A stretch of DNA of 64,000 nucleotides from Marinobacter sp. GTDB lineage: Bacteria; Pseudomonadota; Gammaproteobacteria; Pseudomonadales; Oleiphilaceae. Positions 4,362 through 8,014 of the stretch are shown piece by piece (positions within the stretch are counted from its first letter, which is position 1; each line of letters opens with the position of its first letter). The stretch covers positions 1-64,000 of the forward strand of contig JAJUKC010000005.1 in the NCBI GenBank assembly GCA_029264995.1. The letters are read 5' to 3'. A program made the translations under genes and the position numbers. The notes beneath the pieces are model-generated. The model had not been told where the DNA came from. It did not search any database and saw nothing but the letters and a program-made list of their open reading frames with translations.

Positions 4362-5156
4362 TCAGGCCTGTTCCAGAAAACGCCGGCACAGCATGGCAAA
4401 AGCGTCCGGCTTTTCCGCGTGCAGCCAGTGCCCGGTGCCTTCAATGATTTTTAACTCGGCGCCCGGAAACAGGGTACGAATCGTGTCCCGGTGTTTCTCC
4501 TGGATGTAGGCGGAATCCGCACCCTTGATAAAAAGCACCGGTCCCTCAAACGGTCCCTGCCCTTCCGGCGCTGCCGCCAGCTTGTCATAACAGGCATCAA
4601 TGACAGACAGGTTCAGCCGCCAGCGGAAGGCCACCTCGTCGTCGGCCTGTTCCTGGGCCGGAATACGCTCCAGGTTTTTCAGCAGGAACTGGCGCACACC
4701 CGCCACTTCGACAAACCGGGCCAGGCGGGCATCTGCCTCGCTGCGGGATTTCACGCCACGAAGGTCCATCTGCTGCATGCCTTCAAGAATGGCGTCGTGG
4801 TGGGCCTTGTAGGTAACCGGCGAGATATCCGCCACAATCAATGACCGCACCCGCTCCGGATGCCTCAAAGCAACCTGCATGGCGACCTTGCCGCCCATGG
4901 AGTGGCCCAGCAGACTGGCTTTTTCAATACCCTGGGCATCCAGATAGGCAATGACATCCTCGGCCATGGCCGGATAGTCCATGTCGTCGGTATGGGGAGA
5001 GCTGCCGTGATTGCGTTCATCCAGAGCGTGAATCTGCCAGCCGTCTTCAAGCCGACGGGCAATACCGCCCAGATTTTCCAGGGAACCAAACAGTCCGTGC
5101 AGCAGGATCAACGGTTCGCCCTGGCCGGAAATTCGGTGGTTCAGTGCAACACTCAT
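4362..5156 (-). CDS. Alpha/beta hydrolase (YbfF-like esterase)
   Basis: LILLHGLFGSLENLG, LLGHSMGGKVAMQVALRHP nucleophile elbow. Confidence 0.85.
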   Translation of the reverse strand: MSVALNHRISGQGEPLILLHGLFGSLENLGGIARRLEDGWQIHALDERNHGSSPHTDDMDYPAMAEDVIAYLDAQGIEKASLLGHSMGGKVAMQVALRHPERVRSLIVADISPVTYKAHHDAILEGMQQMDLRGVKSRSEADARLARFVEVAGVRQFLLKNLERIPAQEQADDEVAFRWRLNLSVIDACYDKLAAAPEGQGPFEGPVLFIKGADSAYIQEKHRDTIRTLFPGAELKIIEGTGHWLHAEKPDAFAMLCRRFLEQA

Positions 5157-5249: not shown

Positions 5250-5273
5250 AAAAAAGCCGGGCAGGGCCCGGCT
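5250..5273 (-). terminator. Rho-independent terminator downstream of the 30-aa ORF
   Basis: Minus strand AGCCGGGC-CCT-GCCCGGCT followed by TTTTTT. Confidence 0.85.
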
Positions 5274-5301: not shown

Positions 5302-5394
5302 TCAGCAATAGAAGATGCTGTCCAGGTATTCAGCGAGTGCCAGAACGTTTTTGCGCTCCATTTCGCTATGGGGTACAAAGATTTCCTGTTCCAT
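5302..5394 (-). CDS. Small protein, 30 aa: MEQEIFVPHSEMERKNVLALAEYLDSIFYC
   Basis: ATG preceded by AAAGTGGAGGTGTTGT (strong SD, good spacing), followed by a dedicated terminator at 5250-5273; too short for the ORF track. Confidence 0.75.
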   Translation of the reverse strand: MEQEIFVPHSEMERKNVLALAEYLDSIFYC

Positions 5395-5421
5395 ACAACA
5401 CCTCCACTTTGCAACGCATTA

Positions 5422-5455
5422 CTTCAACCTGATAGCCAACATGCTATCGTTGAAG
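5422..5455. repeat. Inverted repeat (CTTCAAC-ct-GATAGC / caacat / GCTATC-GTTGAAG) upstream of the 30-aa ORF
   Basis: 13-bp stem with a 2-nt bulge, 6-nt loop, read directly. Confidence 0.7.
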
Positions 5456-5489
5456 CAGTAGCAACCCGTTGACTCACTGTCCCAATCAT

Positions 5490-5519
5490 TTGACATTTTG
5501 TATCAGTCCATCAGATAAC
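5490..5519 (+). promoter_or_regulatory. Possible sigma70-type promoter for the AraC-family gene
   Basis: TTGACA, 18-nt spacer, GATAAC, upstream of likely start at 5541. Confidence 0.4.
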
Positions 5520-5540: not shown

Positions 5541-6581
5541 ATGCAGCCCCAGACCGAACATCCGGAATTACCCCAGGTGGCGGCGTCCAGCACCCTGGCA
5601 CTGGTGCATTATCTGGAAACAAGGGGCCTTCTGGATCGTGCCCGGGTTGAACAGGCTACCGGGCTGGCACTGGAGACCTTGAAAGATCCGGATCTGCGGG
5701 TACCCGCCTCTGCCCACTACCGTTTGTGGGAACTGGCCGAGCAACTGACCGCCGATCCGGGCGTCGGCCTTCATGCCGGCCAGGTCATCGACCCCGAGCG
5801 CATGGGGCTGGTCGGCCATGTGTTCTTCAACTGCGATACTCTGGGCGAAGCCGTGGTCCAGTATGTCCGGTTGCACCGACTGATCAACGAGTCGGTCACC
5901 CTGAGTTTTGAGCAAACCCCGGATCAGGCCATCCTGACCTGGCAGCCGGATCATCCGGATCATTACTGTCGCCAGGACATGGACCGCACCCTGGCCGCTG
6001 CCCTGTGCCGGACCCGGCATTTTATCCATCGCGGTATCGAGGCTGATTGGCTGGAAATTGCCCACCCGGAGCCGGCGTACGCCGATGAATATCGCAAACT
6101 GTTCGGTGGTACCGTCCATTTTGGCTGTGGCATTACCCGCATGGCATTTGACAGCAAGCATCTGGGCCACCCCATCCCGCACCGCAATCCCTACGTTTAC
6201 TCAGCGGTGCTGAAACAGGTCAATGCGGTTATGGCCAGGCTACAGACCCGCCGCTCGTTCAGCCGCAAGGTGCGACGGCTCATTTCCCGCCAGATGGCCA
6301 CCGACCGGATTGATGCCGACACCCTGGCCCGGCAGTGCCATATGAGCCGCCAGACCCTGTACCGAAAACTCAAGAAAGAAGGCATGAGTTTCCACGACCT
6401 GGTGGAGCAGGTCCGCAAGGACAAGGCCCTACGCTATGTCGCCGACGACCAATACGCGCTTGGCGAAATCGCCTTTCTTCTGGGGTTCTCCGAGCTGAGT
6501 GCCTTCAGCCGTGCGTTCAAGCGCTGGACCGGTGTTGCCCCGGCCCAGTTCCGGGCCAGTCATCAGGGGCGCGAGTCATGA
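5541..6581 (+). CDS. AraC-family transcriptional regulator (arabinose-binding-like N-terminal domain)
   Basis: C-terminal HTH: IDADTLARQCHMSRQTLYRKLKKEGMSFHDLVEQVRKDKALRYV...FSELSAFSRAFKRWTGVAPAQFR. Confidence 0.9.
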   Translation: MQPQTEHPELPQVAASSTLALVHYLETRGLLDRARVEQATGLALETLKDPDLRVPASAHYRLWELAEQLTADPGVGLHAGQVIDPERMGLVGHVFFNCDTLGEAVVQYVRLHRLINESVTLSFEQTPDQAILTWQPDHPDHYCRQDMDRTLAAALCRTRHFIHRGIEADWLEIAHPEPAYADEYRKLFGGTVHFGCGITRMAFDSKHLGHPIPHRNPYVYSAVLKQVNAVMARLQTRRSFSRKVRRLISRQMATDRIDADTLARQCHMSRQTLYRKLKKEGMSFHDLVEQVRKDKALRYVADDQYALGEIAFLLGFSELSAFSRAFKRWTGVAPAQFRASHQGRES

Positions 6582-8014
6582 TTTCAGAAAACCTTTCGCT
6601 GCTGGCCATTCCCCTGGCGGCGCTGTACCTGGCGGCGCTGGCCTGTATTTATCGCATCCTGCTCACCTATCGTACGGCCCAGGGTGCCATTGCCTGGATT
6701 CTCGCACTGGTGGGCCTGCCCTACATTGCCGTGCCCATGTTCCTGCTGTTTGGCCGCTATCGCTTTGGTGGTTACGTCAAGGCGCGCCGCATAGGCGATG
6801 AATCCCTCACCAACCTGTTGGATCAGTTTGAAAGCCAGACCACCTCCATCACCAATCCGGGCCAGGAGCATTTCAGCGATGAGCTGCCGGTGCTGTGCAA
6901 GCTCGGCCGGCAACCGTTCACCAGCGGCAACCGGTGCACGCTTCTGAGAGACGGCGAAGCCACCTTCGAAGCCTTGTTCGATGCCATGGAAGACGCCCGC
7001 CACTACCTGCTGCTGGAGTTCTATATTGTCCGCTCAGACCGGGTCGGCCAGCGCATCAAGGCCATCCTTGAACGCAAGCTGGCCCAAGGCGTGGAGGTCT
7101 GGTTCCTGTACGACGATATTGGCAGCGCGTTTCTGTCCCGCAAATGGCTGAATGAACTCTCAGCCGCCGGCGCCCGCATCGCCTCGTTTGGTGACGGCAA
7201 TATCCGGCGCCGGCGCTTCCAGATCAACTTCCGTAATCACCGCAAGCTCCTGGTCTGCGATGGCAAGGTCGGCTTTGTCGGCGGCATCAACCTGGGCGAC
7301 GAATACCTGGGCACCGCCATGGACCAGGAGCCCTGGCGCGACACCCATTGCCGGATAGAAGGGCCGGCGGTCACCGGCCTCCAGCTGGCCTGGCTGGAAG
7401 ACTGGAACTGGGCCAGCAATACCCGGCCGGAGCTGAACTGGGCGTCCATGTCGTCGCCTCCCGGCGACCAGGAAGTGCTGGTGTTGCCCACCGGCCCGGC
7501 AGACACCTGGGAAACCTGCACGCTGTTCTTCCTGAACTGCATCAACAACGCCCGCACCCGGATCTGGATTGCCTCGCCCTATTTCGTGCCGGATTTCCAG
7601 ATTATGAATGCCCTGCAGCTGGCGGCATTGAGGGGGGTAGATGTTCGCATCCTGATCCCGGAGAAAACCGACAGTCCACTGGTTCGCCTGGCCGCCTATT
7701 CCTACCTGGTACAGGCCAGTCAGGCCGGCATCGGCATCTATCGTTACCAGCCCGGCTTCATGCACCAGAAAGTGGTTCTGGTGGACAGCCGCTACGCTGC
7801 CATTGGCACTGCCAACCTGGACAACCGTTCCATGCGTCTGAACTTCGAGATTACCGCCGTTAACACCAGCCCGGCGTTCATCCGGCAGGTGGAAACCATG
7901 CTGGAGGAAGATCTGGGGGCCAGCCGGCGCATGACCGAAAACGACTATCGCCAGCGCTCCATCCTGTTCCGGCTGGGCTGCCGGGCGGTACGACTATTGG
8001 CGCCCCTGCTTTGA
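6578..8014 (+). CDS. cls: Cardiolipin synthase (phospholipase D superfamily)
   Basis: Two HKD motifs (NHRKLLVCDGKVGFVGGINLGDEY; MHQKVVLVDSRYAAIGTANLDNRS); ATGA overlap with preceding gene. Confidence 0.9.
   Translation: MISENLSLLAIPLAALYLAALACIYRILLTYRTAQGAIAWILALVGLPYIAVPMFLLFGRYRFGGYVKARRIGDESLTNLLDQFESQTTSITNPGQEHFSDELPVLCKLGRQPFTSGNRCTLLRDGEATFEALFDAMEDARHYLLLEFYIVRSDRVGQRIKAILERKLAQGVEVWFLYDDIGSAFLSRKWLNELSAAGARIASFGDGNIRRRRFQINFRNHRKLLVCDGKVGFVGGINLGDEYLGTAMDQEPWRDTHCRIEGPAVTGLQLAWLEDWNWASNTRPELNWASMSSPPGDQEVLVLPTGPADTWETCTLFFLNCINNARTRIWIASPYFVPDFQIMNALQLAALRGVDVRILIPEKTDSPLVRLAAYSYLVQASQAGIGIYRYQPGFMHQKVVLVDSRYAAIGTANLDNRSMRLNFEITAVNTSPAFIRQVETMLEEDLGASRRMTENDYRQRSILFRLGCRAVRLLAPLL

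Follow-up and report, generated by a model that had tools for sequence, protein, structure and literature searches.

Organization of the microprotein locus

The window analysed here is a 64,000-nt stretch of a Marinobacter sp. genome (contig JAJUKC010000005.1), and all coordinates below refer to it unless another contig is named. It contains a 30-aa microprotein gene with a full set of expression signals, which is transcribed divergently from a gene for an AraC-family regulator. The features of the locus are as follows.

4362..5156, minus strand: YbfF-type alpha/beta hydrolase gene, downstream of the microprotein terminator
5255..5273, minus strand: intrinsic terminator stem-loop, 29 nt past the stop codon, with a T run to about 5249
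5302..5394, minus strand: 30-aa microprotein gene (ORF reading, ATG start), encoding MEQEIFVPHSEMERKNVLALAEYLDSIFYC
5401..5405, minus strand: Shine-Dalgarno sequence GGAGG, 6 nt from the ATG
5422..5433, minus strand: 5' leader ATCAGGTTGAAG, conserved within Marinobacter in an alignment of 27 upstream regions
5441..5446, minus strand: probable -10 box TAGCAT within the conserved AACGATAGCAT, with no -35 consensus
5469..5501, minus strand: putative tandem direct-repeat operator ACAAAATGTCAA-N9-ACAGTGAGTCAA, a conserved repeat with a 21-bp period
5541..6581, plus strand: AraC-family regulator gene, with Arabinose_bd (PF12625) and HTH_18 domains by domain search
6578..8014, plus strand: cardiolipin-synthase-like gene adjoining the AraC gene, named from our reading of the sequence alone

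An earlier sequence-only reading of this region had proposed the 30-aa minus-strand ORF, a strong Shine-Dalgarno sequence, a terminator about 30 nt past the stop codon and a divergent AraC-family neighbour. The ORF with its ATG start, the terminator with its strong stem and T run, and the AraC-family gene starting at 5541 were all confirmed; the GGAGG is likewise present, but it lies 6 nt from the ATG instead of the 7 nt given before. The terminator stem has 8 bp, seven of them GC pairs, with approximately 0.4 such sites expected in shuffles of the region, and its structure is retained among relatives despite sequence variation. The microprotein gene probably forms a separate transcript, closed by its own terminator. 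Its flanks are less uniform: the YbfF-type hydrolase gene is an inconstant neighbour in other genera, and the cardiolipin-synthase-like gene borders the empty site in genomes without the ORF/AraC pair.

Coding conservation and phylogenetic range

By tblastn, the microprotein was matched in 141 out of 163 genomes of the family, covering all 16 genera and showing zero internal stops, although the weakest of these matches include a contig-end fragment (G107) and a decayed copy that is not an intact gene (G125). The Marinobacter loci comprise 92 distinct DNA sequences encoding 70 distinct proteins. Among these 92 sequences, third codon positions hold 58129 of the 105124 pairwise differences, the mean pS is 0.69 versus a mean pN of 0.18, close pairs give a dN/dS of about 0.23, and an ATG with a Shine-Dalgarno-like motif is found in 91. 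At all 76 named loci retrieved via the AraC protein (75 labelled Marinobacter and one Halomonas), the ORF stands behind the operator described below. The consensus is MxxEIFVPHxExERxNxxALxEYLxxIYYC, where E13, N16, L20, Y23 and L24 are invariant across genera. The C-terminal -FYC emphasized in the sequence-only reading is a conserved feature of Marinobacter, but sequences from other genera end instead in A, G, GN, W, R or F, and hence the terminal cysteine is neither essential to the family nor its catalytic thiol.

The ORF almost certainly encodes a real protein, judging by this pattern of substitutions. Frameshifts and stops, which would have spoken against the proposed microprotein, were absent from the intact relatives. 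An open frame without a product, as suggested by the short length and the lack of an annotated family, was rejected as having a negligible probability in view of the conservation across 16 genera, the purifying selection and the start codon with its Shine-Dalgarno sequence.

Two RNA-based readings of the same transcript were considered. The first is an attenuator leader, where terminator formation ahead of the YbfF-type hydrolase gene depends on where the ribosome stands within the short ORF, and the order of short ORF, terminator and downstream gene in the window and most Marinobacter genomes agrees with it. However, the next gene is different or lies on the opposite strand in many relatives (L039-L046, L050, L058, L071, L073, L077), and where it is convergent there is nothing to attenuate; moreover, the entire peptide is conserved, a run of regulatory codons was not found, and the transcript folds no better than its shuffles (z = -1.06). 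This reading was therefore rejected as highly improbable. The second is a dual-function RNA, in which the main role falls to the short terminated transcript, working as a base-pairing sRNA, with the peptide of lesser importance. Within Marinobacter, the conserved leader ATCAGGTTGAAG and a conserved stretch ahead of the terminator would be in line with such a role, but neither can be recognised in the other genera, although these retain the protein, and the constraint sits at the codon level. The search against Rfam gave no match above threshold (SorX, 15.6 bits versus the 46.6 needed). A regulatory RNA thus seems quite unlikely, if somewhat less so than an attenuator.

The microprotein has no family match above the cut-offs in Pfam and NCBIfam and no meaningful relative in the PDB, and no plasmid-borne copies were found. 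The profile (A2) detected no relatives in 368 genomes from other orders of Gammaproteobacteria. Outside the home family, relatives are clear in the family labelled f7 and weak in f3 and f28. Two f7 genomes (G168 and G211; L118-L125) have four microprotein copies each at unlinked sites, with the operator at no fewer than two of them (L121, L123). In f28 (L127-L134), there are ORFs of 35-36 aa ending in ALxEYLxNMYFA, several of which are followed by a terminator, in conserved neighbourhoods. Their match to the microprotein is confined to the C-terminal half, with profile E-values of only 1e-3 to 1e-2, and neither an AraC ortholog nor the operator was found near them; they are possibly distant relatives of the microprotein or an independent small-protein family, and their assignment is doubtful.

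Co-inheritance with the divergent AraC-family regulator

Both domains of the divergently encoded regulator score above their gathering thresholds (142.3 bits for Arabinose_bd PF12625 and 74.3 bits for the AraC HTH), and the protein is 97% identical to its counterpart in M. nauticus DSM 50418. VirS (8rcx) is its closest solved structure. It shares the domain order and the DNA-binding domain with the Arabinose_bd-containing AraC/XylS regulators QhpR, GliR and CypR. By score, however, it does not belong to QhpR (218 bits against the NCBIfam NF049968 cut-off of 250), and it also falls below the NCBIfam cut-offs of GliR and CypR; unlike for regulators of these types, the target here appears to be a microprotein.

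At nearly all examined loci the AraC gene adjoins the ORF divergently, with identities of the regulator down to 37%, whereas other neighbours vary. Five g2 genomes have a TamB-like gene between the ORF and the AraC gene, which lies about 6 kb off. Among the 163 genomes, 137 possess both genes, 23 possess neither, and three possess the ORF alone, one of them at a contig end. None of the 163 genomes retains a microprotein-linked AraC gene in the absence of the ORF: the AraC protein of the single apparent exception, G159, belongs to the fab-cluster clade (see below). In G106 and G108, the ORF is intact although no intact AraC gene accompanies it. In G106 (L148), the place of the AraC gene beside the intact microprotein gene is taken by an ORF of ~70 aa (MFVADKSSGHLIEVLD...) and an MFS-transporter-like gene.

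Losses of the pair can be traced in several genomes. In about 17 of them the flanking genes are directly joined, forming a precise empty site, and there are remnants as well, namely a broken AraC gene with the ORF absent (L142) and a decayed ORF with the AraC gene absent (L141). Joint loss of the two genes requires at least seven independent changes on the flanking-gene tree. It should be noted that this co-loss carries less weight than the linkage seen across genera, because a single deletion can remove both adjacent genes. The occurrence of the ORF without the AraC gene, and never the reverse, fits the ORF as an output and the AraC protein as a switch.

Putative operator and its genome-wide matches

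Between the ORF and the AraC gene we identified the putative operator motif ACN5GTCAA-N9-ACN5GTCAA, which is present upstream of the ORF in 16 out of 16 genera. It was found at each of the intact loci inspected in the bacterial family, the five g2 loci included, at positions -91 to -225, in some cases with one or two changes. As for AraC, the half-sites are tandem direct repeats two helical turns apart. Conservation extends from the repeat to AACGATAGCAT. The end of the proximal half-site is separated by 22 nt from the probable TAGCAT -10 box, and this half-site occupies the position of the missing -35 element. The half-site spacing, the -10 box and the absent -35 element together have the geometry expected for an AraC-type activator.

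Whole-genome searches with the strict operator pattern matched 135 of the 163 genomes, mostly with one match each, bearing in mind that strict patterns can miss degenerate targets. The genome that contains the window has exactly one strict match, at the microprotein promoter, the assembly being only 73% complete. A reversed control pattern gave roughly 37 matches in total, as counted by eye, which places stray single operator matches close to what chance would give.

The link to the AraC gene made in the sequence-only reading is borne out by the conserved operator and the co-inheritance, and on these comparative grounds the AraC protein very probably controls the microprotein gene. There are good reasons to think that the microprotein is also its sole or main target. 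The earlier description as a "regulatory microprotein" can be kept in part: the microprotein is real, but the evidence casts the ORF as a target of the AraC protein and not as its regulator. As a gene and a regulated unit, there is a strong case for a new and so far uncharacterised family of microproteins served by a dedicated AraC-type switch.

Predicted structure of the microprotein

AlphaFold2 predicts a single helix at residues 11-27 (mean pLDDT 88.9), preceded by an extended N-terminus with a near-invariant IFVP. The acidic, amphipathic character noticed earlier holds, the net charge being -4 (family mean -4.0) and the helix being amphipathic. Its conserved face and its hydrophobic face point only 8 degrees apart, and the conservation moment has p = 0.03. 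The coincidence of the two faces, along with the near-invariant IFVP, suggests docking onto a larger protein, and docking onto such a partner is the most likely way for the microprotein to work.

The AraC protein itself was considered as this partner, the peptide binding it and adjusting its activity in a feedback loop. The divergent pairing and co-inheritance of the two genes are compatible with such an interaction, as is a loosely similar N-terminal helix of the AraC protein (ALVHYL, compared with ALAEYL in the peptide), although this similarity may be coincidental. On the other hand, the ORF has stayed intact in G106 and G108, where an intact AraC gene is lacking, and f7 has several scattered microprotein paralogs and one AraC gene located elsewhere. 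Feedback on the AraC protein is thus an unlikely function, though better placed than an RNA-level one.

Possible association with fatty acid synthesis genes

Other sites of the operator motif recur upstream of fabA-fabB (L165-L168, L177, L178, L191). Targeted inspection located the motif with zero or one mismatch upstream of fabA in G095, G144, G021, G148, G018, G154 and G001. Tandem GTCAA operators were observed about 100 bp upstream of fabA at L264:976, L265:944 (reversed), L266:1019 and L276:160 (reversed). The tandem fabA operator is perfect in some genomes, and most Marinobacter genomes, including the one that contains the window, possess the proximal half-site only.

In all Marinobacter genomes examined, the gene directly past fabB is convergent and encodes a short AraC-type protein of 118-189 aa that consists mostly of a DNA-binding domain. 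In the genome of the window, the gene lies on another contig:

G000:C14, L262:2754-3107, minus strand: short AraC-type gene after fabB (also at L264-L269 and L274-L276)

The DNA-binding domain of this protein shares about 50% identity with its equivalent in the window's AraC protein, and the same operator motif is present upstream of fabA in several genomes. It differs in having no sensor domain and in presumably regulating fabA, not the microprotein. It is likely an unrecognised regulator of unsaturated fatty acid synthesis. As fabA in most Marinobacter genomes has no more than the proximal half-site and would have its own short regulator, the AraC protein of the window is not necessarily a regulator of fabA.

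Full-length AraC genes are found in f7 and g2 at a cluster of fabA, fabB, fabV and acetyl-CoA-carboxylase-like genes, and their products form a supported clade that is sister to the microprotein-linked AraC proteins. At L270-L273, fabA-fabB-fabV are followed by an unusual protein of ~1500 aa that joins AccA-like and biotin-carboxylase domains; at L270-L272, an AraC gene comes next. In G211, a microprotein paralog with its operator lies directly upstream of fabA.

The operator and a sister AraC protein at fabA-fabB point to fatty acid synthesis or membrane-lipid homeostasis as the most likely process and source of the partner. These observations place the AraC/microprotein pair near fatty acid synthesis but fall short of proof; our confidence in a lipid role is moderate, and we regard the odds of an actual link between the pair and lipids as even. 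The strongest competing explanation is that the microprotein process is unrelated to lipids, the shared operator merely reflecting the shared ancestry of the DNA-binding domains. It draws on the distinct short AraC protein as the fabA regulator in Marinobacter; against it, the only close AraC protein of f7 is encoded at the fab cluster, and the microprotein paralogs there carry its motif, one of them beside fabA. Such an unrelated process is a real possibility, to which we nevertheless give less than an even chance.

Proposed function and significance

The favoured explanation, in which we have reasonable but far from complete confidence, is an AraC-activated, dedicated microprotein docking on a partner from a lipid process. 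According to this explanation, the divergently encoded AraC protein would bind the tandem AC-N5-GTCAA half-sites 21 bp apart and thereby turn on the microprotein gene, its dedicated and probably sole output. The microprotein would then dock via its amphipathic helix (residues 11-27) on a larger protein that probably takes part in fatty acid synthesis or membrane-lipid homeostasis. As for the signal, a fatty acid or an acyl thioester as the ligand of the Arabinose_bd domain would fit the fab context. A more specific and rather speculative version, which we consider improbable in its full form, has a lipid-sensing AraC protein with a single genomic target, where the 30-aa protein binds either an enzyme of fatty acid synthesis or the short fabA regulator and tunes it.

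Small enterobacterial proteins such as MgrB and MgtS, which are targeted by the regulator PhoP, offer a parallel. Like them, the microprotein is shorter than 50 aa, and it would have its own promoter, be controlled by a transcription factor and presumably act by binding a larger protein. In contrast to them, it has no known sequence relation and no transmembrane segment, and its regulator adjoins it divergently, seemingly with this one target.

Bacterial proteins of ~30 aa are mostly missed by annotation, and, to our knowledge, few of such size have a known regulator or process. Control of unsaturated fatty acid synthesis beyond FadR, FabR and DesT is, as far as we know, little explored in these marine oil-degraders. 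Our literature searches returned no account of a fab switch of the AraC type that includes a microprotein as a branch, and such a system would be new. Comparative genomics alone has yielded the gene, its probable regulator, an operator and a candidate process, which makes the function directly testable. If the more specific version above is true, the microprotein would be the founding example of a family of fatty-acid-synthesis microproteins that is spread across several families of Pseudomonadales and takes in the f7 paralogs, perhaps also the f28 peptides; the analysis suggests that in Marinobacter this microprotein may tune the production of membrane lipids.
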